This document shows positions 19,616 to 57,954 of a stretch of 64,000 nt of DNA, piece after piece. Origin of the DNA: Petroclostridium xylanilyticum (GTDB lineage: Bacteria > Bacillota > Clostridia > SK-Y3); NCBI RefSeq assembly GCF_002252565.1, contig NZ_NPML01000012.1, forward strand, positions 62,001 to 126,000, given 5' to 3'. Made by a program: the position numbers and the translations under genes. Positions within the stretch are counted from its first letter, which is position 1. Every line of letters begins with the position of its first letter. The notes under the pieces were generated by a model, which made no database searches, had not been told where the DNA came from, and worked only from the letters and a program-made list of their open reading frames with translations.

Positions 19616-20461
19616 TTAGTCCTTGCAAGGTCTTGCGTTATTGAAGACATCCTGTGCACCTTCAAATTCAAATCTTTGAGGTGGGAAGAATTCATCAATC
19701 GGGAACTTGATTCTTTCAAATAATTCGCAAGGATTGTCTTCAGTAGCTGCAATACATTCTTTATCAGGAACGCAGAAATCAAATGCAGGAATGAGCAGCT
19801 GGACATTTCTTTCAATTTTAATAATTGTGAACAATCCAAGAGAAACAAATACCCTCTTTCTTTCTGCACCGGCTACCAATTCATCATCAAAGCAGCTGCA
19901 TACACTTTCAGGTATTCCTGACAGGTCTATATTATCAGTCGGGAACAATCTGTCAGTAATATCAACTAATTTAGCTGCCAGGCATATTGGGTCAACTACT
20001 TCCACTTTAGCTTTTGGCATATTGGTCTTCTTCCAGAGCTGTGGATCAAATGCATCTTCTTTGAATTTGGATTCAAAGATCTTAGCATTACCTTCAGAAC
20101 CGAAGAGGATAACCGTCTTGTCAAATGTAGCCAACCCTTCTACTTCTGTAGGCCTTCCAATACCTGTAAATGCGTCCAGGGTAATTCTGAAGAAAAATTT
20201 AACACTTACTGTGAAAAATCCCCTGTTAAATGGAACAGGCTCTACATCCGGGAAAACCCAGATGATTTCAGCTTTTCTACATTTAACATTTATTGCCCTG
20301 TCAACGATTTCCTGGCCTCTTCTGGTTAAAAATACTCTTAAATCTTCCAGACAGTCTTTTTCCCTACAAGAATCATAAACCTTATCTGTCTGTATGCATA
20401 CAGCTTCTTTGAATCCTGGATGCGCACCAAGAATTGGTCCTGGTTTAAGTTTTTCGCTCAT
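19616..20461 (-). CDS. Unknown Cys-containing protein, paralogue 1; spore-layer candidate
   Basis: A 281-residue soluble protein of no family I can name. It has about ten cysteines, several near the N-terminus in CIQTDKVYDSCREKDCLEDL. The C-terminal part (IIKIERNVQLLIPAFDFCVP then DKEC, ending FPIDEFFPPQRFEFEG) aligns with the protein at 32542-33189, so the two are paralogues. It diverges from a beta-propeller gene, exactly as the second copy does. Upstream is an AC-N16-CATATTATG signal, like the late-sporulation sigma-K promoter, so I infer a structural protein of the spore coat or exosporium. AGGAGG precedes the ATG. Confidence 0.7.
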   Translation of the reverse strand: MSEKLKPGPILGAHPGFKEAVCIQTDKVYDSCREKDCLEDLRVFLTRRGQEIVDRAINVKCRKAEIIWVFPDVEPVPFNRGFFTVSVKFFFRITLDAFTGIGRPTEVEGLATFDKTVILFGSEGNAKIFESKFKEDAFDPQLWKKTNMPKAKVEVVDPICLAAKLVDITDRLFPTDNIDLSGIPESVCSCFDDELVAGAERKRVFVSLGLFTIIKIERNVQLLIPAFDFCVPDKECIAATEDNPCELFERIKFPIDEFFPPQRFEFEGAQDVFNNARPCKD

Positions 20462-20741: not shown

Positions 20742-22280
20742 TTGACTAAGGTCATATCTAATCAATATATGCTTAAACAAGCTTCTAAACAGCAATGGTA
20801 TTTTTTTCACCATACTAATACAGGTATTTGCTTTAAAAAGAAACTGGAAAATGAATGGAGTGATTATGAGATCCTGCTCAAGGATGGACAGGGAGATTTT
20901 GATATTATTATAGATCCTAGAGATAACATACATTTAATTTGCCAGGATAAGCTTGGAAGTATCATCTACCTTATGTATAATGGGCAGCAATGGCACAAGT
21001 ATGTTATCCTGCAAAGTAAAAACAATAAAGCATACCCTAAGTACTTTAAGATGTTGTTCGTAAATGGTTGGATTAACCTTTTTTATGTCATCCAATACAA
21101 AGATAAAAATCTGCTCGTACACCATATACTAGATAATAACAACGTCTCTCCTAATGTTATCGACTATATAGTTACATCAGCCAGGCCTTTTTCCGTTTCA
21201 GCAGAAAACTCAGGCAATATACATATATATTATCAAGATAATACTGATTCCAACAAAATTGGCTACAGGGTGTATATGTGGTCTAAAAAAACATGGAGTG
21301 ATTTTATCTCTATTGATCTGGAAAATTATGATGCAGTATTACCCTATATTATCATAGATCACCAGGACAACATTCACCTTACGTATTTAAAAAAATCAGG
21401 AAAAAATTATGATATCATTTACAAACGCAAGCCTTCCAACAGTTATAACAAAGCTTTGTGGGATAAGGAAGTAGTAGTCTATAACCGTTGCTATGAGGAT
21501 GCTGTTCCTGTGATTATGAAAGTTGATAAACAGCTTTTGATATTATGGCAGCAGGATATTAAAGTACTAAGCAGTTCCTCGGACGATGATGGGATTACAT
21601 GGAGAAAACCTTCACAGTTTATGGCGGGCAGATACGGCAATATAGGACTATTTGGATTTAGAATTCCTGCTTCTATGGATAAAGATAATATCATTTGTGA
21701 CCAATGCTACGGCTATAACACTAATAACGATATAAATTTGTATATAATTTCCAATTATCTTGAACAACTGCCGGCTGCCAAACCTGAACCTGAATTCAAA
21801 ATGTCGGGTTATGAAGTGGAAGAATTTGCAGAAAAACATAAGAATTCCTTCCTGTTTCCTTCTTCTAATCCTTCCGTCCCTGCTGCTTCTCCAGCTGCAG
21901 CATTTTTGCGTTCTTCAACAAGTCAGTCAAATACCGGGGTTGATAATAGCATTGAAAGTACTAAATTAAAGATCATGCTCAATATGCTTCAAGAAGATCT
22001 TTCTCAGACTAAGAAAAAACTATTGGAATTAAGTCAATTTTCTAGAATTGATGAAGACTTAAAAAATATTATAGACGAGCAATACAGAACTGAAATTGAA
22101 AAATTAAAAGTGCAATTCCAACAGCTCTTAGAGAGAATTGCACAAATTGAAAAAATTCAAGACAATATTATCCGTACAGAGCTAGAACGTATTAATAAAG
22201 AAATTACCATTATCAAGCGTAATAACAATAAAACGAGTTTTACAGATTTGATTCATAAGGTAGAGGAAAGCAAAAAATAA
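20742..22280 (+). CDS. Beta-propeller plus C-terminal coiled-coil protein, paralogue 1
   Basis: A 512-residue protein without a signal peptide. Residues ~1-360 contain repeated blade-like segments centred on D-x-x-N-I-H (DPRDNIHLICQD, SAENSGNIHIYYQD, DHQDNIHLTYLK), suggesting a beta-propeller. A Pro/Ser/Ala linker (~370-405) leads to a long coiled coil (~410-500) rich in Lys, Glu, Gln and Leu. The protein at 33498-34943 has the same layout. Both copies diverge from the paralogous Cys-containing proteins, which implies that each pair works together, perhaps as scaffold parts of a spore layer. Translation appears to start at TTG after GGGGGTG. No enzyme signature is visible. Confidence 0.65.
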   Translation: MTKVISNQYMLKQASKQQWYFFHHTNTGICFKKKLENEWSDYEILLKDGQGDFDIIIDPRDNIHLICQDKLGSIIYLMYNGQQWHKYVILQSKNNKAYPKYFKMLFVNGWINLFYVIQYKDKNLLVHHILDNNNVSPNVIDYIVTSARPFSVSAENSGNIHIYYQDNTDSNKIGYRVYMWSKKTWSDFISIDLENYDAVLPYIIIDHQDNIHLTYLKKSGKNYDIIYKRKPSNSYNKALWDKEVVVYNRCYEDAVPVIMKVDKQLLILWQQDIKVLSSSSDDDGITWRKPSQFMAGRYGNIGLFGFRIPASMDKDNIICDQCYGYNTNNDINLYIISNYLEQLPAAKPEPEFKMSGYEVEEFAEKHKNSFLFPSSNPSVPAASPAAAFLRSSTSQSNTGVDNSIESTKLKIMLNMLQEDLSQTKKKLLELSQFSRIDEDLKNIIDEQYRTEIEKLKVQFQQLLERIAQIEKIQDNIIRTELERINKEITIIKRNNNKTSFTDLIHKVEESKK

Positions 22281-22283
22281 GAT

Positions 22284-22314
22284 ACCTTCGACGTCTCCCA
22301 TTGACGTCGAAGGT
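22284..22314. terminator. Bidirectional terminator between convergent genes
   Basis: A perfect 12-bp stem (ACCTTCGACGTC / GACGTCGAAGGT) with a 7-base loop sits between the stop codons of the propeller gene (plus) and the acidic protein gene (minus). Confidence 0.85.
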
Positions 22315-22323
22315 TTATCTATA

Positions 22324-23226
22324 TTAACCCATTAATTTTTGATGGATTGAGTATAATTTTTCCAGCATTTCAAAAGCATTTATACTGCTTGTACGATTGG
22401 TATTAATGTCGGATACATGATGCTGAGCAGTAACAGGTTGTTCGCATGTTACATCATTAACAGTTTTATTCTCCAAGTCCGATTCCGGCGTTTGTTGTTG
22501 ACTATCCGGTTTTTTAACTGTATTGTATACTCCAACTTCTATATCTTCCTCTATACCTTCTTCTATGCCTTTTTCCAAATCTTCATCCATATAAAAATCA
22601 GTCATTTTTTCAGAAGTATCGCTGCTGCTGGTATCCTTGTCCTGTACATCATCCGGTTGATCATAAGATAATGTCTCTTTTACTGCCTTCTCCAAATCTT
22701 CTATTATACTTTTCTCTACATTTCCCTTGATATTTTCCATATTTTCTTCTATATCATCTTCCATATCTTCCTTCATGCTCTCTATATTACTATTTTGTAA
22801 ATGTATTGGATCAGGTCCTGAAATAGACTGGTAGATGGATTCATAGGTTTTTTCATCACTATTATAATCCTGTACCTCAATCAACTCAACATCTTGAATC
22901 TGATGGTTATCCTTTTCCGTAATCAAGTCATTGCTGCTTTTTACTTTTCTTATACTGTTAAAGTACAGTAATGGGCGGTACGGTAAATTTTTGCAATTTA
23001 TTCGATTCACTCTCTCCTTCTGGAGTTGCAAAGGTTGTGAAGCAGGTTGATAGCTTTCTTTCTGGACGTTATCCCCTTGGGTACTACCCATTTTTTGTTT
23101 TTGGGTCTGCTTCTCATCATTTTTTTGCGTTTCATAATCTTGTTTGGTTTGGACTGATCTACTATTATTAAAATACGGTAATGGACGGTACGGCAGATTA
23201 CTACACTTTATCCGATTCATTTTCAT
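22324..23226 (-). CDS. Acidic low-complexity protein with duplicated NLPYRPL motif
   Basis: A 300-residue hydrophilic protein, probably largely disordered. It begins with MNRIKCSNLPYRPLPYFNN, and the same motif returns near residue 73 as VNRINCKNLPYRPLLYFNS; each copy has one Cys. The middle (~150-230) is very rich in Glu/Asp with Met-Glu-Asp repeats, and the C-terminus ends in a short helix. No family is recognised. It is the last gene of a seven-gene minus-strand set that starts at a sigma-K-like promoter, so a spore-layer role is inferred. AAGGAAG precedes the ATG. Confidence 0.6.
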   Translation of the reverse strand: MKMNRIKCSNLPYRPLPYFNNSRSVQTKQDYETQKNDEKQTQKQKMGSTQGDNVQKESYQPASQPLQLQKERVNRINCKNLPYRPLLYFNSIRKVKSSNDLITEKDNHQIQDVELIEVQDYNSDEKTYESIYQSISGPDPIHLQNSNIESMKEDMEDDIEENMENIKGNVEKSIIEDLEKAVKETLSYDQPDDVQDKDTSSSDTSEKMTDFYMDEDLEKGIEEGIEEDIEVGVYNTVKKPDSQQQTPESDLENKTVNDVTCEQPVTAQHHVSDINTNRTSSINAFEMLEKLYSIHQKLMG

Positions 23227-23276
23227 AATTTATAAACTTCCTTTCTTTATATGTATTATATAAAATGGTAAAAATC

Positions 23277-23615
23277 TTATTTATTGTAGCTGGTGATTTT
23301 CTTCATAATTGAATACATCTCTCTTTCATTTATATTACATTTCTTTATAAGAGACTTTGTTTTTTCTAACGGGTCGGCTGTAGCATAAAATTCTTTATTT
23401 GCTTCCAATTCTTTTAGCATTTTTTCATAGATTACTTTCTCACTAGGAAATAAAACATCCTCTAGTTTGACTTCATAGGATTTTGGCCTTTTATGGGTGC
23501 CTCCGTTATCAATATAATTTTCAAACCATTTATGTCCATTCTTACATTCAAACCTGACTCTCATCGGTTCATTTATTTTTATAACCTCTGTCTGATTACA
23601 AATGGCACACTTCAA
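23277..23615 (-). CDS. Small protein with N-terminal Cys pairs (possible zinc ribbon)
   Basis: About 112 residues. CAICNQ at the start and FECKNGHKWFENYI at ~25-38 could form a small zinc-binding finger; the rest is a charged helical region. A GTG nine bases upstream is possible, but AAGGAAG is better placed for the TTG. The gene lies between two small genes of the same operon. Function unknown. Confidence 0.6.
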   Translation of the reverse strand: MKCAICNQTEVIKINEPMRVRFECKNGHKWFENYIDNGGTHKRPKSYEVKLEDVLFPSEKVIYEKMLKELEANKEFYATADPLEKTKSLIKKCNINEREMYSIMKKITSYNK

Positions 23616-23628
23616 ATTTATCACTTCC

Positions 23629-23913
23629 TTACCGCCTTGAAATTCCTAATACTTTGACTCCCGGTTTGATTTCTATTGCCTGAAACGGGTGGTCATTTAT
23701 CCATATGGAACCTTTCTCATCAACTCTTAAATCTATATCTAAACCTTCAAAATTTAAATTTTCTAAAGCGTATGGTGAGATAAACACCAATACTGAATTT
23801 AGTTGTACTGGTGATATATTATTAGTTCCGGCTAAATTTGCCTGGTTAGAAAGGTTGACCAAAAAGTTATAGAATTTATTTTCAATCACCTCTGAATCTT
23901 TAGATGACTTCAT
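23629..23913 (-). CDS. Small protein with NQAN motif, paralogue of the 24230 gene
   Basis: About 94 residues. The segment FLVNLSNQANLAGTNNISP (~15-33) resembles the start of the protein encoded at 23952-24230 (NSSNQANVHSANQSG), and both continue with a beta-rich second half containing a 'G-x-L/I-x-I-N' pattern (KGSIWINDHPF here, SGELEINGLD there). AAAGGAGGG lies before the ATG chosen; a longer start at 23955 would overlap the upstream stop codon. Function unknown; it may be an assembly subunit. Confidence 0.58.
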   Translation of the reverse strand: MKSSKDSEVIENKFYNFLVNLSNQANLAGTNNISPVQLNSVLVFISPYALENLNFEGLDIDLRVDEKGSIWINDHPFQAIEIKPGVKVLGISRR

Positions 23914-23951
23914 ACAACTTATTCCCTCCTTTGCACGATGTAAAGAAAATG

Positions 23952-24230
23952 TCATTCTTCTTTACTACAAGTCATTTTTTTATCTGAATAAACGCGAATA
24001 TTATTTTCATCACTCAAAATATCTTTATCCAAACCATTAATCTCAAGTTCTCCAGATCTAGTAATGTTTATAGATACCGGAATTTCATCTGTTTGCCCAT
24101 TGTCTCTCCTTAAATGCTCTAAACCCAGTATAACTACAAAATTGAACTGGGATAAGCCAGACTGGTTAGCACTGTGAACGTTCGCTTGATTTGAAGAGTT
24201 AAGTATGGTCGATAATTTTTTTTGGTCCAA
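23952..24230 (-). CDS. Small protein with NQAN motif, paralogue of the 23913 gene
   Basis: A 92-residue protein starting at TTG with GAGGTG upstream. An Asn/Gln/Ser-rich N-terminus (NSSNQANVHSANQSGLSQFN) is followed by FVVILGLEHLRR and a beta-rich C-terminal half. The Asn/Gln-rich start also recalls the NQNAQQ core of the very small proteins at 25310-26391. No known domain. It belongs to the operon 22324-25162. Confidence 0.58.
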   Translation of the reverse strand: MDQKKLSTILNSSNQANVHSANQSGLSQFNFVVILGLEHLRRDNGQTDEIPVSINITRSGELEINGLDKDILSDENNIRVYSDKKMTCSKEE

Positions 24231-24256
24231 AATTTATCACCTCACACCATTGTATT

Positions 24257-24517
24257 TTAAGTCTGTTCGTTTAACATTTGTTTTAATTTTTCCGCTTTTT
24301 CTTCGTTTGTCAAAGTTTTATCAATACGCAATTGATGCATTTTCATTAACAATTTCAACGGGTCGATATTTCCAATATCTTTATTCATCTTAATATTAAA
24401 ATCTCCTATCGTTACCTCTGTTGGATCAATTTTATATTTTTTATCTTTCTTCTTGTTTGGTTCAATACCGTTTTCAACTTTTATATCATCAGCTTGCCTT
24501 TGACTTTCTTCCGACAT
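24257..24517 (-). CDS. Small charged protein, paralogue of the 25716 gene
   Basis: An 86-residue protein. Its C-terminal half (NIDPLKLLMKMHQLRIDKT then EKAEKLKQML) matches in pattern the C-terminal half of the protein at 25498-25716 (KVDAFELLSKLASVRMADT then MDKIKILQSM). The N-terminal half is Lys/Glu-rich and disordered-looking. The shared helix suggests a common binding partner in the two adjacent operons. The start has AAGGAGATGAG upstream. Confidence 0.58.
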   Translation of the reverse strand: MSEESQRQADDIKVENGIEPNKKKDKKYKIDPTEVTIGDFNIKMNKDIGNIDPLKLLMKMHQLRIDKTLTNEEKAEKLKQMLNEQT

Positions 24518-24624
24518 AGTCTCATCTCCTTACTCTCAAGTTAACCTGTATAAACCAAATCTACACAGGTCAAGGATCTTAGTTCTGCATTTAAACTTTT
24601 CTTCACCGCTCCCAACCCGCTACT

Positions 24625-24930
24625 CTAATATTTAACCGTAGTCCTTTCTGTCTTATTGGGCTCTTGTATATCTGTAATGACTGCAGTTTCTCCCTTACTT
24701 GCTTTTTTCTGCTGCTCTATCATTTTCCTGGTCTCTTCTCCGGTATTTAATTTGTTATATTTCTCAACACTTACGCTTAAATTTTTATATTTCGTCTTAT
24801 TTTCGTCATAGAGTTCACCATCGATAAAAACATTTCCGTTTTTATCGATTTTAATTTCTGAAGGTATATCTTTTCGTTTCCTCGTGCTTGTTATTGTAAT
24901 CCAGTTGTCACTTTTAGCGTTATTATTCAC
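24625..24930 (-). CDS. Small hydrophilic protein, unknown
   Basis: A 101-residue charged protein that probably starts at GTG with AAAGGAGG upstream. It has a beta-type segment IKIDKNGNVFIDGELYD (~27-43), reminiscent of the G-x-L/V-x-I-x-G pattern in its operon neighbours, and a Lys/Glu/Thr-rich tail. No family or signal peptide. It is the second gene of the 22324-25162 operon. Confidence 0.55.
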   Translation of the reverse strand: MNNNAKSDNWITITSTRKRKDIPSEIKIDKNGNVFIDGELYDENKTKYKNLSVSVEKYNKLNTGEETRKMIEQQKKASKGETAVITDIQEPNKTERTTVKY

Positions 24931-24964
24931 GGCTTCTCTTTACCTCCTTTTGTCTGTATAACTC

Positions 24965-25162
24965 CTAACTCTCACCTGTAGCTTCATTACCTCCGGCACT
25001 ATTGATTTTAACTGCAGAATCGGATTGTGTTATGACAGAATATGCTGAAAGAGTCATATTAGATTGTTGGTTTGTATTGACCTGATCAATAATATCTGCT
25101 TGCATATATATATCATTTGATTTTTTTGATTCTGGTAATTTGCCAGCAGCCTGTTTCGGCAT
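24965..25162 (-). CDS. Very small Gln/Asn/Ser-rich protein, first gene of operon
   Basis: A 65-residue protein. The longer frame from 25246 is unlikely, because AGGGGAGG lies before the ATG at 25162. The sequence IIDQVNTNQQSNMTLSAYSV is rich in Asn, Gln and Ser, and the C-terminus is Gly/Asn-rich. It is preceded by a sigma-K-like promoter (25206-25233) and starts the operon that ends at 22324. Function unknown; a structural role in a spore layer is an inference. Confidence 0.55.
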   Translation of the reverse strand: MPKQAAGKLPESKKSNDIYMQADIIDQVNTNQQSNMTLSAYSVITQSDSAVKINSAGGNEATGES

Positions 25163-25233: not shown

Positions 25234-25248
25234 TCGCATCATACATAA

Positions 25249-25297
25249 TAAAAAAGACCCTCCTCGTAGAAAGAGCTGCGAGAAGAGTCCTTTTTAT
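25249..25297 (-). terminator. Terminator of the small-protein array
   Basis: On the minus strand, AAAAAGGACTCTTCTCG pairs imperfectly with CGAGGAGGGTCTTTTTT around a short loop and ends in TTTTTTATT. It directly follows the last array gene (stop at 25310). Confidence 0.75.
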
Positions 25298-25309
25298 TAT
25301 ATTTTTCTT

Positions 25310-25465
25310 TTATGCGCAAATATTATCATTATCAAGGTTAGTAGCAAATCCGAATTGAGCTTCTAAAATGTTCAGTACCTGAGCTGCTATAAGGACTAAG
25401 ATTTGCTGAGCATTCTGGTTTACAACTTTCTGATTGATACAGCTAGCTACAAAAATATCCGGCAT
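25310..25465 (-). CDS. Array protein E: 51-residue DIFVASxINQK family
   Basis: A 51-codon gene that usual size cut-offs miss. It begins MPDIFVASCINQKVVNQNAQ and ends FATNLDNDNICA, differing from array protein B (26006-26161) in only a few residues, including a Val-to-Cys change and a new Cys near the end. AGGAGGGAA lies at proper distance from the ATG. The core is one amphipathic helix (about residues 12-38). It is the last gene of a five-gene operon. Function unknown; a self-assembling spore-layer subunit is my inference. Confidence 0.65.
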   Translation of the reverse strand: MPDIFVASCINQKVVNQNAQQILVLIAAQVLNILEAQFGFATNLDNDNICA

Positions 25466-25497: not shown

Positions 25498-25716
25498 TTA
25501 TTTTTCTACCATAGACTGTAATATTTTAATTTTATCCATTGTAGTAGCTTCTGTATCTGCCATTCTGACAGAAGCAAGCTTTGATAACAATTCAAATGCA
25601 TCTACTTTATTGTCTATTTCCTCTGCTTCTATGCCATAGCCATTGACAGAAAAATTCAAAGGATTAAACTTTTTTGAGTTAAGGGTTAAACCTTCTTTAC
25701 TGAATCCTATTTTCAA
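25498..25716 (-). CDS. Array-linked small protein D, paralogue of the 24517 gene
   Basis: A 72-residue protein starting at TTG with AGAAAGGAG well placed upstream; a slightly longer frame to 25737 would swallow that site. It has a beta-rich first half (LKIGFSKEGLTLNSKKF) and a helical second half (VDAFELLSKLASVRM) shared with the protein at 24257-24517. It lies inside the array of INQK-family genes but is not a member of that family, so it may be a partner or cap protein. Confidence 0.55.
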   Translation of the reverse strand: MKIGFSKEGLTLNSKKFNPLNFSVNGYGIEAEEIDNKVDAFELLSKLASVRMADTEATTMDKIKILQSMVEK

Positions 25717-25745
25717 CTGTAACATCTCCTTTCTCAAACAAATTT

Positions 25746-25970
25746 TTATACGTTTACAACATCACTATCATCATTGGTGGAGAATCCAAACTGAGCTTCA
25801 ATGATATTAACAACCTGAATAGCTATAGCAACCAGGATCTGTTGTGCATTCTGGTTTACAGCCTTTTGATTAATCACACTGGCTACAAAGATGTCCCCTG
25901 AACCTGTTGACAAAATTGAAGGTTTCTTTGGCATAGCACCGTTTATATATTTATAAGCCAGGCTATTCAC
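25746..25970 (-). CDS. Array protein C: DIFVASVINQK family with extended N-terminus
   Basis: A 74-residue member of the array family. An extra ~24-residue N-terminus precedes GDIFVASVINQKAVNQNAQQ; the shared helix is followed by AQFGFSTNDDSDVVNV. It starts at GTG after AGGAAGGAG. The family core is Gln/Asn-rich at the start of a hydrophobic helix and acidic at the end, a plan suited to stacking or polymerising. No database family is recognised. Confidence 0.65.
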   Translation of the reverse strand: MNSLAYKYINGAMPKKPSILSTGSGDIFVASVINQKAVNQNAQQILVAIAIQVVNIIEAQFGFSTNDDSDVVNV

Positions 25971-26005: not shown

Positions 26006-26161
26006 TTATGCTTTTATAGTATCATTGTCGAGATTAGTAGCAAATCCGAATTGAGCTTCCAGGATATTTAGTACCTGAGCTGCTATAAGGACTAAGATTT
26101 GCTGAGCATTCTGGTTTACAACTTTCTGATTGATTACACTAGCTACAAAAATGTCTGGCAT
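26006..26161 (-). CDS. Array protein B: 51-residue DIFVASVINQK family
   Basis: The 51-residue protein is nearly identical to array protein E: MPDIFVASVINQKVVNQNAQ, then the helix core and FATNLDNDTIKA. A longer frame reaches 26218, but the bases before the ATG at 26161 include GAGGTAAC at a proper distance. Recent gene duplication is likely for the B/E pair, while A and C form a second subtype ending FSTNDDSD. Confidence 0.65.
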   Translation of the reverse strand: MPDIFVASVINQKVVNQNAQQILVLIAAQVLNILEAQFGFATNLDNDTIKA

Positions 26162-26214: not shown

Positions 26215-26391
26215 TCATACGTTTACCGTATCGCTATCATCATTGGTAGAAAAACCAAATTGAGCTTCAGTAAGGTTGATAACCTGGGCAGCCACAGCAA
26301 CCAAGATTTGTTGTGCATTTTGGTTTACAGCTTTCTGGTTGATTACGCTGGCTACAAAAATGTCACCCGAACAGGAATTTGTGTTCGCCAT
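26215..26391 (-). CDS. Array protein A: DIFVASVINQK family, first gene of operon
   Basis: A 58-residue protein: MANTNSCSGDIFVASVINQK, then the common Gln/Asn-rich amphipathic helix and an acidic end, FSTNDDSDTVNV. GGGAGGTG lies before the ATG; a longer frame to 26499 overlaps the promoter region and is improbable. A sigma-K-like signal lies at 26424-26450, only ~35 bases upstream. It heads the operon A-B-C-D-E (26391 to 25310). Confidence 0.65.
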   Translation of the reverse strand: MANTNSCSGDIFVASVINQKAVNQNAQQILVAVAAQVINLTEAQFGFSTNDDSDTVNV

Positions 26392-26423: not shown

Positions 26424-26450
26424 TATAATATGTAGTACAGTTAATAGTGT
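26424..26450 (-). promoter_or_regulatory. Sigma-K-like promoter of the small-protein array
   Basis: Minus strand: AC, 16 bases, then CATATTATA, a full match to AC-N16-CATANNNTA. It suits a short leader before array gene A and suggests late mother-cell expression. Confidence 0.6.
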
Positions 26451-26667: not shown

Positions 26668-26991
26668 TTACTGTTTAAGTCCATTCATTTTTAAAATTTG
26701 GTTCATTTCATACACTGCCGCCTCAATAATCTTATCAATTTGTTCATCGGTCAATTTTCCTTTGGTGAAATTCTTTAATACCTGTACCGCCTCTTGTTTT
26801 TTATCCGCACCATGTCCTCCCCCAATCGTCTGTTCTATAGCCGTAACTACAGTCTTTGCAAGGGAGCAGTAGACTTTAAGATTCTGTTCACCTATCTTTG
26901 CTCTAATATACTGTATGGCATATCCCCCAACAATAAGAATAAGAATTTGTATCAACACCGTTAGCAACTCGGCTAGTAACTCACCAATCAT
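26668..26991 (-). CDS. LL-H-type phage holin-family protein
   Basis: A 107-residue protein with a single N-terminal membrane segment (~5-25, LAELLTVLIQILILIVGGYA) and a charged helical C-terminal part with AKTVVTAIEQ and QEAVQVLKNF, the layout of the LL-H holin family in Clostridia. Holins make membrane holes that let murein hydrolases reach the wall. It sits 12 bp after an amidase gene, the usual lysis-cassette order, but no other phage gene is present. AGGAGGGG precedes the ATG. Confidence 0.75.
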   Translation of the reverse strand: MIGELLAELLTVLIQILILIVGGYAIQYIRAKIGEQNLKVYCSLAKTVVTAIEQTIGGGHGADKKQEAVQVLKNFTKGKLTDEQIDKIIEAAVYEMNQILKMNGLKQ

Positions 26992-27003
26992 AAAGAACCC
27001 CTC

Positions 27004-28170
27004 CTATTTCATATTTTTTAATCGCTGTTGAGTAATAATATATTCACCCCATGTAACAGGTACGTCCAGGTCATGGTCTTCCAGGACTATACCCTTTGCT
27101 TTCCATTCATCAAAGGCGTCCTGTGCAAAATGCTTCGGCTTTTCGTCTACTTTAGTCTGTAAAATATCTTTCCATATTTTTACGATGCTTTCACCATATC
27201 CTTGCCCGGGTACAGCCCATTTTCCGTTTAAATCTTCCCAGTAGGGTGCACTTCCACGTTGGACCAGATGAAAGCGCGGGTCTACCTGCTTCGTTTTTAA
27301 GGGACCGGTGGTTGCATAAGCCTTTAAATGTTGTATCTGTGCCCTAATTCCTTCTTCAGGAGTTGCAAAGACTGCACCTTTACTATTTTCATCTGTAGCA
27401 CCTAATCCCGCAAAATTATTCTGATTTTTATCAATACTTCCACCAAATTTAAAATATCCGGTTTCTTTAATAGCCTGCGCAAAAGCAATATCCCCCTTCA
27501 CACCTTCCTGTTCTCCAATTATTAAAAATAATTCTGCCAGATATGGAGCATCCGGGTTAACACCTCTCACAAACTTATCCATCTGCTGTGCTGTAGCTTC
27601 TGCCTTTCCCATAATAGGAGTTTTATTCGAAAACACAGGTTTAAATCCGAAATATTCACACATTACTTTTGTCAACTGATTAGTAAAAGCGTCCTGCCAC
27701 TGTGTGTTGTTTAATTTATCTTCTTCTTCAGGATTAGATATAAACATAACTTCAATCAGCACTGCTGGCATTTTTGTCTCCCGTAATACGTAAAAATTAG
27801 CGAATTTTACTCCCCGGTCCTTATTTTTGTTAAACTCTATCATCTTGGTCTGCAGCACCTGAGCCAGTTTGTATGCCTTTCCGCCGCCGGCAAGACAAAA
27901 TGTCTCTGTCCCACTAGCTCTTTTATCTTTCGAACTGTTGCAATGAATACTAATGAAATAATCCGCCCGATTTTTATTTGCAATATCACATCTTGGCTGT
28001 AGGTCAATATACCGGTCATCCTCTCTGGTGCAAACAATATCCATTCCACTTGCAATGAGTTTGTCTTTGAGTTTTAGCGAAAGAATTAAATTTATATCTT
28101 TCTCTTTGCTGTAGCTCCCCAATGCACCCGGATCTTTTCCCCCGTGCCCCGGGTCAATAACTATCTTCAT
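27004..28170 (-). CDS. N-acetylmuramoyl-L-alanine amidase with glucosaminidase-like domain
   Basis: A 388-residue cell-wall hydrolase with two catalytic domains and no signal peptide. The Amidase_3 domain (~1-180) starts IVIDPGHGGKDPGA, supplies further metal ligands in SIHCNS and contains the catalytic-site region VLIEVMFISNPEE. The second domain (~200-345) shows IAFAQAIKETGYFKFGGSI and NNFAGLGA, as in glucosaminidase/lysozyme-like families. A ~40-residue tail with WGEYI repeats a common wall-binding end. Lack of a signal peptide plus the adjacent holin gene suggests holin-dependent release, such as in mother-cell lysis or a retained phage cassette. GGGAG precedes the ATG. Confidence 0.88.
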   Translation of the reverse strand: MKIVIDPGHGGKDPGALGSYSKEKDINLILSLKLKDKLIASGMDIVCTREDDRYIDLQPRCDIANKNRADYFISIHCNSSKDKRASGTETFCLAGGGKAYKLAQVLQTKMIEFNKNKDRGVKFANFYVLRETKMPAVLIEVMFISNPEEEDKLNNTQWQDAFTNQLTKVMCEYFGFKPVFSNKTPIMGKAEATAQQMDKFVRGVNPDAPYLAELFLIIGEQEGVKGDIAFAQAIKETGYFKFGGSIDKNQNNFAGLGATDENSKGAVFATPEEGIRAQIQHLKAYATTGPLKTKQVDPRFHLVQRGSAPYWEDLNGKWAVPGQGYGESIVKIWKDILQTKVDEKPKHFAQDAFDEWKAKGIVLEDHDLDVPVTWGEYIITQQRLKNMK

Positions 28171-28261: not shown

Positions 28262-28450
28262 GGGTGTCAAGTGTCGGTGTCAAGGGGACGGGTTGTTTGT
28301 CGGTGTCAAGGGGACGTCGGTGTCAAGGGGACGGGGTTGTTGACAACATGTTGTCAAACGGGTGTCAACAACCCCGTCCCCTTGACACCCACGGGGTTGT
28401 TGACAACATGTTGTCAAACGGGTGTCAACAACCCCGTCCCCTTGACACCC
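28262..28450. repeat. Palindromic tandem repeat, 60-bp unit
   Basis: The left part holds three GGTGTCAAGGGGACG units. From 28331 a 60-base unit is repeated exactly twice (28331-28390 and 28391-28450). Each unit is itself a palindrome: ACGGGGTTGTTGACA... pairs with TGTCAACAACCCCGT, with TTGACAACATGTTGTCAA in its centre, and ends CCCCTTGACACCC. It fills the gap between the amidase and the sugar dehydrogenase gene. The sequence is far more GC-rich than its surroundings. Confidence 0.9.
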
Positions 28451-28556
28451 ATAGTTTTCATTTACCATAAGGTCTTTAGATGGGTGTGCAAAATGTCCCG
28501 GATGGGGGTGATAAACAAATCATTTTTAAGCTCGTAACCTTTTGTGCATATACAAT

Positions 28557-32541: not shown

Positions 32542-33189
32542 TTATTGTCCACAAGGGTATATATACTGGGATTGTGCCGGGTAAAAATCATCAGGAAATG
32601 CAGCGGAATCGAAATCATCACATGCACTGACATCTGAAAAGTCTTTACATTCTCTTGGTGGAACACAATATGGAAATACTTGGTCAAGCTTCAGCTGCAC
32701 CCTTCCTATTACCTTAGGAATGACAAATACTCCTATTGCAAGCGTTAATATGCATCCATCATTACACTCACATTCTACTATTTGGTCTAATACCTCTCCC
32801 CTTGTTTCAACAATAATATTAAATTTAAATTCAGACCTTGTATCTGGATGGTACATTACTATATCAAGAGGTATTTCTGGAAGTGTTCCAGGGATTTCAA
32901 AACATTTACCATTGCAGGTAGCTACAACTATGTAGTTTGTTACTACAGTCGCCTTTATTCTTTTGCAACCTTCCGGAAGTACAGAACTGTCTAGAACTTT
33001 TAGAGAACCTGGTACTATTACTCCGTTTTCAAAACGCACTTCGATGTCGCAAAAATTAGGGTCTATTCCATCTGGCAGTTGTACTTTTATATCATCGAAG
33101 CAAACTTTCTTTAGGCAGCTATCAAAAACCTTATCCACAAGTATGCATTCAAAATTTCTTTCGTATAATCCATCAAAACCGTTAGCCAT
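32542..33189 (-). CDS. Unknown Cys-containing protein, paralogue 2; spore-layer candidate
   Basis: A 215-residue soluble protein with about fifteen cysteines. LVDKVFDSCLKKVCFDDIKV near the N-terminus and VFVIPKVIGRVQLKLDQVFP then CVPPRECKDF near the C-terminus match the same regions of the 281-residue protein at 19616-20461. The middle is shorter and the C-terminus (FPDDFYPAQSQYIYP) ends in Tyr-rich sequence suited to cross-linking. AAGGAGG precedes the ATG. A sigma-K-like signal lies far upstream (33355). I infer a spore coat/exosporium structural protein. Confidence 0.7.
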   Translation of the reverse strand: MANGFDGLYERNFECILVDKVFDSCLKKVCFDDIKVQLPDGIDPNFCDIEVRFENGVIVPGSLKVLDSSVLPEGCKRIKATVVTNYIVVATCNGKCFEIPGTLPEIPLDIVMYHPDTRSEFKFNIIVETRGEVLDQIVECECNDGCILTLAIGVFVIPKVIGRVQLKLDQVFPYCVPPRECKDFSDVSACDDFDSAAFPDDFYPAQSQYIYPCGQ

Positions 33190-33381: not shown

Positions 33382-33497
33382 TACTACCAGCTGTAATTTA
33401 TTTTTATTTGATATTTAAGGAAAGTCCATAAAAAAAAAGCATATACATATAATATGAAAATAGTGCGGAGCGGACAGTGGGGAGTGTGGTGATCATC

Positions 33498-34943
33498 ATG
33501 CAGCAAAAAATGTTTCTTATAAAAAAAAGCAACGGCATTATCTACAACTTTTATTTTTCGAAAACAGGAGGGATTTGCTATAAGCTCTACTCTTTACACA
33601 ACAACCAAAAGGTAGACCCTTTTGAAATAAGTGTAATTGAAGAAAAAATTCTTGAGTTCTATGTAAATATCGATGAAGAAGATACCATTCATATCTTATG
33701 CCTTACTGAAAGCGGGGAACTTAAATATTTCGTTAATAAAGAAAATATGTGGAACAGCAAAGTATTTTCACGCTTTGACTTGCGTTCAAACATTGTAAAA
33801 TCTTTATTTATTCATGTCACCAATAAAAAAATATACATCATATATGCAGCCAGTAATCTGATGAATGTGAATCTATGGACAATCTATTTTAAATCCTGGG
33901 ACGGGTCTAAATGGAACAATATAAATATTGGTATGACTATATGCGATAAGGAATTCCCACCTTATTGTTTAGCACTTGATACTCAAAATAATATTCATGT
34001 GGTTTATAAAAACTCCAGTAACAGAGGTACTCAAATATTTTATAGAAAGTTTCACATGCAGTTTTCTCTATGGAGCACACCTGAAAAAACTATAAATTCC
34101 CCTGAAGCTGTAGGATTCTACTATATTTTCTGTGACACACGCAATAATCTTCATCTGGTATGGTCAACTTCAACCAGTACTAACTTTAAAATGCTATATA
34201 AAAAACTTAATACTAAAGTATTAAATAATAAGCATTATGATAGAATTATTTCAGTACATATGTCCAACCATCCATATTTGCAGCCTGTAATATTTGAGAT
34301 AGAACAAAAAATATGGGTAATGTGGAGAAACCAGGGCGAATTTTCAGGATGTGAAATAGACTCATCAGGCCTATCCTGCAGTTCTGTCTCATCCATCCAA
34401 CATGCCGGCAGTTCCTCTCCCATACTTGTTGAGTTTATCAATAATTATGAAATAGAAAAACAGAGCTTTAGTGGACGTTTATTATATGGGGTTGTAGACG
34501 ACTTTATTGATTTAATACTTCCTAAAAGTTACTCTTGTGATTTTTATGAAAACATACCTACAGAAGCATCAGAATTAGATCCTGAAGAGTTTTTAGCTAA
34601 TGAATATTCCCCTCAGAATTTAGTCCAAGAATTGGTTACAGTAAATGAAAAGGAAAAACAGGTTGCTGCCATTCAAACACTAAACGAGCAATTACCCTCT
34701 AAAGTATCCGAAAAATTTGATGAGATTAAATTAGATAATCAAAAAATTGTAAAAATATTAAAAGAAGTTAAAGAACAATTGGATAACCAGGATGTAATAA
34801 AAATCCTCGAAGAAATTAAAACGCAAAATGTATTGCTTACGGAACTTATAGCAAAAACGCTTGAAAAAAATGCAATAACAGAATCCGTTGAAACATCAAA
34901 AAATGATGGAATGTTAAAAAAAGTCTTTAACTTTTTTAAGTAA
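33498..34943 (+). CDS. Beta-propeller plus C-terminal coiled-coil protein, paralogue 2
   Basis: About 481 residues with the layout of the protein at 20742-22280. Blade-like repeats centred on D-x-x-N-x-H occur (DEEDTIHILCLT, DTQNNIHVVYKN, DTRNNLHLVWST) over ~1-340, then a linker and a Lys/Glu-rich coiled coil (~390-460), ending in a short amphipathic helix, KKVFNFFK. No signal peptide. It diverges from the second Cys-containing protein gene. The start is uncertain among several GTG/ATG codons at 33477-33498; GGTG lies before the ATG chosen. Confidence 0.62.
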   Translation: MQQKMFLIKKSNGIIYNFYFSKTGGICYKLYSLHNNQKVDPFEISVIEEKILEFYVNIDEEDTIHILCLTESGELKYFVNKENMWNSKVFSRFDLRSNIVKSLFIHVTNKKIYIIYAASNLMNVNLWTIYFKSWDGSKWNNINIGMTICDKEFPPYCLALDTQNNIHVVYKNSSNRGTQIFYRKFHMQFSLWSTPEKTINSPEAVGFYYIFCDTRNNLHLVWSTSTSTNFKMLYKKLNTKVLNNKHYDRIISVHMSNHPYLQPVIFEIEQKIWVMWRNQGEFSGCEIDSSGLSCSSVSSIQHAGSSSPILVEFINNYEIEKQSFSGRLLYGVVDDFIDLILPKSYSCDFYENIPTEASELDPEEFLANEYSPQNLVQELVTVNEKEKQVAAIQTLNEQLPSKVSEKFDEIKLDNQKIVKILKEVKEQLDNQDVIKILEEIKTQNVLLTELIAKTLEKNAITESVETSKNDGMLKKVFNFFK

Positions 34944-52604: not shown

Positions 52605-53354
52605 TTATACCTGCGCATTATAGTAAACGTCGAACGTACAGGTTACACCGCTTGTTTCATAGAATAATCGCGTATACTGCAAGAATTTAGCTGCTACAAG
52701 CGTAGTTTTTTGGCCTGCTGCTACACCTACCGGACCACTTGTATCGTCCACAAAATAGCTGGCAGTAGTTGTTGGACTAATCTGCAGTTGGACGGTTACC
52801 GTATTGGATCCAGTATTAAATACATAGAAGGAATACATGCTTTGCTCACCGGTATTTTGTACGAATATGCCGGCTGAGTCGATAACTCCTGCTACTGTTG
52901 TATAGCTTTCAGTAAACAGGCGTGAGGACAATTTTATACTATCTGTCGCTGCTGATAATGCTCTTATATCAAGATCTTCAGCAGTTACTGTTACTACTGA
53001 GTTCCAGATAGTAATGCTGTCGGTTGTTCCGGTTATCGGCCTGATGTCAAAGTTTTCGGCAGTCACTGTTACTACTGAGTTCCAGATGGTAATACTGTCG
53101 GTTGTTCCGGTTATCGGCCTGATGTCAAAGTTTTCGGCAGTCACTGTTACTACTGAGTTCCAGATGGTAATACTGTCGGTTGTTCCGGTTATCGGCCTGA
53201 TGTCAAGGTTCTGAGCTGTTACTGTTACCGTACCTAAATCCAATCTACCGCTGGAATCCGTGAGGATCGCTACTGTATTACCGTTTCCATCCACACCGCT
53301 TATTTGCGTTTTAAGTTGACTGGCAGTTCCATTAAACACTAGATTATTTGGCAT
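52605..53354 (-). CDS. DUF6385 protein with 26-residue tandem repeats
   Basis: A 249-residue protein. The N-terminal ~45 residues end in GRLDLGTVTVTAQNLDIR; then the unit DIRPITGTTDSITIWNS plus a VVTVTAENF linker repeats three times, with a degenerate fourth copy (~45-145), probably a beta-solenoid-like stalk. The C-terminal ~100 residues (YSFYVFNTGSNTVTVQLQIS then FLQYTRLFYET) are a DUF6385 domain. The repeats are exact or nearly so at DNA level (78-bp period). AAAGGAGGTG precedes the start, and a sigma-K-like promoter lies at 53398. The Thr/Ser-rich units and the neighbouring TPR-GT suggest a glycosylated spore-surface protein. Confidence 0.8.
   Translation of the reverse strand: MPNNLVFNGTASQLKTQISGVDGNGNTVAILTDSSGRLDLGTVTVTAQNLDIRPITGTTDSITIWNSVVTVTAENFDIRPITGTTDSITIWNSVVTVTAENFDIRPITGTTDSITIWNSVVTVTAEDLDIRALSAATDSIKLSSRLFTESYTTVAGVIDSAGIFVQNTGEQSMYSFYVFNTGSNTVTVQLQISPTTTASYFVDDTSGPVGVAAGQKTTLVAAKFLQYTRLFYETSGVTCTFDVYYNAQV
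52976..53230. repeat. 78-bp tandem repeats inside the DUF6385 gene
   Basis: Three copies with CTGATGTCAA landmarks at 53041, 53119 and 53197 (exactly 78 bases apart), plus diverged flanking units. Each encodes one 26-residue DIRPITG repeat. Copy number may change by slippage. Confidence 0.9.
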
Positions 53355-53397
53355 CACTTCTCACCTCCTTTCCAGGAGGAATAATAAAATTCTAGTT

Positions 53398-57525: not shown

Positions 57526-57954
57526 TTATTTGACTGCCTTTAACCGTGCCAAATCAGTCCAATTGCTTGCGGTGATAACTTCAACATTAGATACATCTTT
57601 CCTGAGATTTTTTACTTCTTTGCTAATCTCCGCCATTTCCATCATCATTTGTTCATGTTCGGCCTTGTTTACCTGTGTCGAATGTTCCAATGCTCTTAAG
57701 ATTCTTGTATTCTCTTCTTGTTGCACTTTTATAGCGCTAATTTCCGATTTCATAGAACTAATTTCTGTTTTCATAGAACTAATTTCTGTTTTCATAGAAC
57801 TAATTTCTGTTTTCACAGAACCAATTTCCGTTTTCACAGAATCAATTTCCGTCTTCACAGAATCAATTTCCGTCTTCATAGTTCTAATTTCTGTCTCGAT
57901 GCCTCCAAGCCTCTCATTCATTTTATTGAGCATTGCTAATATTTTTTCTTCCAT
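57526..57954 (-). CDS. Coiled-coil protein with heptad repeats
   Basis: A 142-residue protein made almost entirely of helix. Seven-residue units of the type MKTEISS or VKTEIDS repeat about eight times (~22-80), followed by a Glu/Lys-rich helix. The gene shows 21-bp repeats. GGGGTG lies before the ATG at 57954. It has no family assignment; similar low-complexity coiled coils occur in many Firmicutes. It separates ispF from ispD, which are usually adjacent. Confidence 0.65.
   Translation of the reverse strand: MEEKILAMLNKMNERLGGIETEIRTMKTEIDSVKTEIDSVKTEIGSVKTEISSMKTEISSMKTEISSMKSEISAIKVQQEENTRILRALEHSTQVNKAEHEQMMMEMAEISKEVKNLRKDVSNVEVITASNWTDLARLKAVK
57730..57890. repeat. 21-bp tandem repeats in the coiled-coil gene
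   Basis: Units such as ATAGAACTAATTTCTGTTTTC recur about seven times with small changes. They encode the heptads and are prone to copy-number change. The open frames on the plus strand here are shadows of the same repeats. Confidence 0.85.

Follow-up and report, generated by a model that had tools for sequence, protein, structure and literature searches.

What could be built by two adjacent operons whose products, searched against Pfam, NCBIfam and PHROGs, give no match above a curated cut-off? The question is raised by a stretch of the Petroclostridium xylanilyticum genome (RefSeq assembly GCF_002252565.1, contig NZ_NPML01000012.1, positions 62,001–126,000 of the forward strand; the whole stretch of 64,000 nucleotides is called the window below). 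Here an upstream operon encoding an array of near-identical short proteins (the array operon) and a second operon of seven genes (operon 2, p1–p7, 22324–25162) lie next to each other on the minus strand and form a cassette of about 4.1 kb. An original prediction, made from the letters of the sequence, had described operon 2 as seven small proteins with paralogy among themselves and to the array, and the whole as a multi-component assembly built by repeated duplication. The reading that we favour, with a probability close to evenly balanced, is that the genes of the cassette specify the components of a single structural assembly, which is made in the mother cell late in sporulation and lies most likely on or next to the forming spore. 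A single late mother-cell structure is suggested because the gene set and its order are fixed, because the set comes and goes as a block, because subunit copies are combined with accessory genes and because sigma-K-like promoters precede the operons.

The gene set occurs as a block in fixed order

Strict peptide patterns of the array proteins, scanned over 84,980 species genomes, gave six loci (L005–L010), with Alkaliphilus peptidifermentans among their holders. Whole-genome searches added L019 (in genome G002, array as query), L035 (in G241, p2 as query) and L036 and L037 (both with the array), and a p5 query against 20 members of the Alkaliphilus family matched five, one of them A. peptidifermentans, and yielded L049–L051 and a remnant, L052. 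Including the window there are 14 intact loci, found with three queries (array, p2 and p5); the counts over these loci are made without L052 and without L055, a locus of genome G003 that may hold the set because p7, the only gene found, lies at a contig edge. In all 14, two to four array genes and the gene for protein D are followed by p1–p2–p3–p4–p5 in this order, the position of D among the array copies varying between loci (p3 of L008, which has no significant single-sequence match, was identified from its position and by alignment). All of the 14 except L035 have p6 (both halves in ten, the C-terminal half alone in L010, L019 and L051), and 12 have p7, 11 of them with its C-terminal helix; L035 and L005 have no p7. 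That the proteins belong to a multi-component assembly is a reasonable inference from this strict co-occurrence and order; that they also touch one another would be a further step.

The set is rare: of 398 genomes of the phylum, queries with the array and with p5 each matched the same three, among them the own genome. p2 matched four of 391 genomes of the class, namely the own genome, G002, G241 and G302, the last being probably a false match (E 7.8e-4, 39 positions within a 1202-residue frame) that was set aside. Within the window's own family the array was found in two of six genomes. In two further members of this family (G005 and G001) the order glycosyltransferase–amidase–holin–BNR-like gene–coat-like gene is conserved, with the block cleanly missing between the syntenic holin and BNR-like genes, while in distant lineages the flanks vary (the dxs/ispA region in L005 and L007, ispA in L006, other genes elsewhere). 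The cassette is gained or lost as one block.

Several loci show features of their own. In L019 (4401–5003) p7 has the N-terminal repeats and an acidic end and is without the conserved C-terminal helix, through a frameshift or a true loss. L035 (6724–9004) is a divergent version in which two array-like proteins end in acidic EAEEED and in which both p6 and p7 are missing; it also provides a weak bridge between array and p1 (see below). The remnant L052 (8087–8755) retains a fragment of an array gene overlapping p5, followed by p6 only, the remainder being gone as if deleted. In L050 the array is directly preceded, on the same strand, by a gene of the manganese (Mn)-catalase family (PF05067, 10718–11410), to which the spore-coat protein CotJC belongs.

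Genes and proteins of the cassette

The array of the window consists of four near-identical proteins of about 50 amino acids, all encoded on the minus strand like the rest of the cassette: A (26218–26391, 58 residues), B (26006–26161, 51 residues), C (25746–25970, with an N-terminal extension and a start at 25934 or 25970) and E (25310–25465, 51 residues, 94% identical to B). An array query against the own genome of 3.86 Mb matched these four and nothing else. Across the loci the 34 array proteins have 47–79 residues. AlphaFold2 predicts for B a single helix over residues 2–39 (mean predicted local distance difference test score, pLDDT, 82), and in 32 sequences (the two divergent rows of L035 being left out) 17 positions of the helix reach 95% conservation or more and are spread over the whole circumference of the helical wheel (resultant 0.17), a pattern consistent with a subunit that has neighbours on all sides. 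In a tree of the array proteins, which has few columns and many unresolved forks, copies from the same genome group together in L019 (support 100/98) and L036 (92/93); this similarity within genomes suggests that the copies evolve together, as expected for parts of one polymer.

Between C and E lies protein D (25498–25722, 74 residues), with a conserved N-terminal stretch and a C-terminal helix. In operon 2 the first gene is p1 (24965–25162, 65 residues), which has the conserved core A-x-I-I-D-Q-x-N-x-N-Q-Q-S-N-M-T-L-S...I-T-Q and an orthologue in all 14 loci. It is followed by p2 (24625–24930, 101 residues, 47–71% identical to its orthologues), which has a W-I-x-I start, a hairpin I-D-x-x-G-x-V-Y-I-D-G, a helix with T-G-E-E-T-x-K-M and a C-terminal T-T-[VI]-K-[YF], and by p3 (24257–24517, 86 residues), with the C-terminal helix D-P-x-x-L-L-x-x-L-Y-x-L-R. 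p4 (23952–24230, 92 residues) begins with TTG, and p5 (23629–23913) has 94 residues. p6 (23277–23624, 115 residues) combines a zinc-ribbon-like N-terminal half (CxxC...CxxGH) with a conserved C-terminal half, and p7 (22324–23226) is an acidic protein of 300 residues with N-terminal NRIxC...PYRPLxYF repeats and a conserved C-terminal helix. All seven reading frames that had been predicted for operon 2 are thus present on the minus strand, but only six are small: p7 is of medium size, all other proteins of the cassette having 51–115 residues. No secretion signal is evident by eye in the cassette proteins.

That the open reading frames are real genes follows from the ratio of non-synonymous to synonymous substitution rates (dN/dS), which is 0.01–0.19 in 15 of 17 gene pairs tested (window against its nearest relative L019, the close loci L006 and L007 against each other, and window copies B against E); no ratio is obtained for p1 and p5 between window and L019, the remaining two pairs, where synonymous sites are saturated. 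The cassette genes are under purifying selection.

The best Pfam match of any system protein, that of p2 to DUF7339 (E 9.6e-4, with 19.6 bits where the cut-off is 27), was taken as noise, and the matches of p2 in PDB, to designed propellers and a kinase sensor propeller (best E 8.5e-7), are mostly matches of 16–17 residues summed over repeats, which we read as a convergent hairpin and not as kinship. The PDB sequence matches of the array, p5 and p2 include no filament subunit, and PHROG matches of the system proteins have E values of 0.012 or weaker.

Two modules appear to be re-used among the accessory proteins

Family alignments were compared profile against profile with hhalign (28 family pairs and five extra comparisons, 20 column shuffles each). 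The prediction that the proteins starting at 24230 (p4) and 23913 (p5) share an SNQAN motif and a G-x-[IL]-x-I-N strand (GELEIN, GSIWIN) held, and the two are paralogues: their profiles match at 96.8% (E 2.3e-10, 66 columns, score 57.9 against a shuffled best of 17.1), and pairwise BLASTP gives E 5e-4. The predicted sharing of the C-terminal helix of p3 (start 24517) with D was likewise confirmed by profiles (95.3%, E 2.1e-8 over 58 columns, with a score of 46.8 where the best shuffle reached 12.4), pairwise BLASTP giving no significant match (E 0.70). The C-terminal helix of p7 resembles D (34.7%) and p3 (11.7%), in each case with none of 50 shuffles as high, and a hairpin of 23 columns is common, at moderate levels, to p2 and p5 (76%) and p2 and p4 (64%). 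The accessory proteins thus appear to contain two re-used modules, a helix (D, p3 and p7) and a hairpin (p2, p4 and p5).

Repeated duplication therefore accounts for p4/p5, D/p3 and the array copies, together with the p7 helix and the p2/p4/p5 hairpin, but most of the 28 family pairs are without detectable kinship (array with D, p2, p3, p4 or p5; p1 with p3 or p5; p6 with all others, its best profile value being 1.9%, with p3). Array against p1 is not significant (1.6% with L035, 0.3% without it). The divergent array proteins of L035, however, match the array at 82% and p1 at 13%, the latter above all 20 shuffles, and kinship between array and p1, resting on this one bridging genome, is suggestive only. 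Profile comparison and a search for the gene set elsewhere had been proposed as the check on the original prediction; because the former detects similarity and the latter finds the gene order conserved in other Bacillota, the prediction stands in these respects, and taken as a whole it is partly supported.

Promoter motifs and hairpins

The two operons are separated, as predicted, by a terminator and a sigma-K-like promoter: a strong hairpin (25243–25302, minus strand) is followed by AC-N17-CATAGTATG (25233–25206, minus strand) upstream of p1. The array operon has AC-N16-CATATTATA (26424–26450, minus strand). We searched up to 200 bases upstream for AC-N15-17-CATANNNT[AG], a relaxed form of the sigma-K consensus of PMC5749712, and over all 14 loci the motif precedes the array in nine and p1 in seven, where 300 rounds of dinucleotide-preserving shuffling gave means of 0.39 and 0.19 and maxima of three and two respectively. 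By comparison, seven of 114 non-cassette genes in the 13 loci other than the window carry it (Fisher p 9e-7 for the array, 9e-5 for p1), as do six of 48 such genes in the window; the coat-like neighbours account for two of these six and, in L019, for one of the seven. The gap between the operons contains a hairpin of at least 8 bp in 13 of the 14 loci, where 1.36 would be expected from shuffles.

A proposed late mother-cell structure

These observations would be drawn together as follows. Both operons would be transcribed by a sigma-K-type RNA polymerase. From the array operon would come the bulk subunits, two to four near-identical helices of about 38 residues, rich in Gln and Asn, which would pack into a polymer; the short helix common to D, p3 and p7 would dock accessory proteins onto it, and p1, p2, p4 and p5 would be smaller structural or capping parts. 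The inter-operon hairpin would keep the accessory proteins less abundant than the bulk subunits. The coat, the exosporium or an appendage layer are candidate locations. Polymerization, docking, stoichiometry and placement at the spore are what we infer from the computed gene order, block behaviour, selection, paralogies, motifs and hairpins.

Several points weigh against this reading. The motif is absent upstream of the array in five of the 14 loci and upstream of p1 in seven, and it could possibly be read as sigma-E-like. SpoIVA is present in nine of ten holders searched, but as 173 of 199 genomes of the phylum have it this is uninformative. Neighbouring genes vary by lineage and few are recognizable as spore genes; the BNR-like neighbour is non-specific, being present in block-less members of the family and absent from five holders, so it was rejected as a specific partner. 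The AlphaFold2 model of p5, with a beta-rich C-terminal half, is of low confidence (mean pLDDT 64) and has no counterpart among solved folds (of 70 matches at E up to 10, not one reaches 0.001).

A wider claim, which we regard as rather doubtful, is that the cassette stands for a kind of bacterial protein polymer not yet described: subunits of about 50 residues, in several co-evolving isoforms and each a single Gln/Asn-patterned helix, would form a filament, ribbon or lattice associated with the spore, and about seven dedicated accessory proteins would be put together from two re-used modules, a docking helix (D, p3 and p7) and a beta-hairpin (p2, p4 and p5), the whole being inherited or lost as one cassette across Bacillota. 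If true, a single-helix polymer of such subunits would be an unusually simple self-assembling protein. Clostridial coat and appendage genes are, according to PMC3533761, largely unidentified and variable between lineages; a compact, portable cassette with tiny subunits could be produced as a whole in a laboratory host, which would make a hidden spore structure directly testable.

Neighbouring genes

p7 and the BNR-like gene face each other with their 3′ ends, and a hairpin with a 12-bp stem (22284–22314) between them marks the edge of the cassette. At the other side a Holin_LLH gene and an endolysin-type amidase/glucosaminidase gene adjoin the array (26668–28170); as G005 and G001 have the pair in this position but no block, it is a feature of the locus and not of the cassette. 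The window also has two paralogous divergent pairs, each of a coat-like and a BNR-like gene (19616–20461 with 20742–22280; 32542–33189 with 33477–34943). Both coat-like genes have a sigma-K-like motif upstream, both pairs are kept in G001 and the first alone in G005, and none of the window copies exceeds a Pfam cut-off. Elsewhere in the window there are an exact 60-bp tandem repeat with internal palindromes (28299–28451; repetitive extragenic palindrome (REP)-like or mobile-element-like), tandem repeats of 78 bp (52977–53228) and 21/42 bp (57739–57894), and a gene starting at 53357 with a sigma-K-like motif upstream.

Alternative explanations

The reb loci that encode R-bodies (RebA/RebB/RebD; Caedibacter, Proteobacteria) are small and, as PMC3583457 describes them, contain tandem paralogous short helical subunits with conserved uncharacterized partners, the Reb proteins having a mean of 95 residues. 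The cassette shares this anatomy, with near-identical array copies, predicted all-helical, beside small partners in fixed synteny, and an R-body-like device would let the array form a coiled ribbon or inclusion (a parasporal body) in the mother cell with a mechanical role such as spore release. The array proteins, however, are about half as long as Reb proteins, the phylum is another, and the promoter motifs are of sporulation type. None of the 34 array proteins matches RebB (PF11747) at E up to 10; the whole own genome is also negative, a weak result as control genomes gave no match either; and no reb counterpart was detected for D or p1–p7. We think such a device unlikely.

In Bacillus the gerP operon encodes small uncharacterized coat proteins with internal paralogy, transcribed as one sigma-K operon, and the small, internally paralogous proteins of the cassette behind their sigma-K-like promoter recall it. 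Its proteins might thus set the permeability of the coat to germinants without forming any visible structure, but repeated near-identical bulk subunits are not known as a feature of gerP, and no window protein matches the GerPA, PB, PC, PD, PE or PF families (Pfam at E up to 1, NCBIfam), which makes this explanation improbable too. Similarly low is the probability of an intracellular structure unconnected with sporulation (for storage, or gas-vesicle-like or microcompartment-like) whose promoters would do no more than resemble sigma-K sites: the polymer-like anatomy and the absence of the motif from 12 of the 28 upstream regions speak for it, but the motif is enriched over shuffles and over the 114 neighbouring genes, and no gas-vesicle or microcompartment family was matched.

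Tandem, fairly hydrophobic helical proteins of about 50 residues would suit the short secreted peptides of a multi-peptide antimicrobial cluster, but such a cluster is very improbable: the C-termini are acidic, co-occurrence with p1–p5 is strict, and neither a leader peptide nor genes for maturation, export or immunity were noticed. A phage-derived tail or lysis island, to which the adjoining holin and amidase might point, is disfavoured and the least probable of all, as this pair stands at the same place without the block in the two family members mentioned and was not seen beside the block in other lineages, and as two viral-contig scans, one phage search and one plasmid search found no relative.

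Comparison with known systems

The favoured reading, a structure made late in the mother cell, has parallels at the spore surface. GerQ coat filaments and the Ena endospore appendages of Bacillus are filaments formed by small spore-surface proteins, but in Pfam none of the cassette proteins matches the GerQ or the Ena family at E up to 1. No description of the gene set was found in the literature, where the genes are nameless for searching, so that absence from print is not established.

The ribbon-appendage cluster of Clostridium taeniosporum (P29a, P29b, GP85 and CL2), as presented in PMC5749712, consists of genes with extensive similarity to one another and with putative sigma-K promoters of the same consensus, and its products form a late mother-cell structure. 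The appendage proteins are of other sizes and kinds, with DUF11 and collagen-like regions, for which the system proteins of the window give no Pfam match. Although it fails the sequence tests for both, the cassette would in its working be most like R-bodies or clostridial spore appendages.

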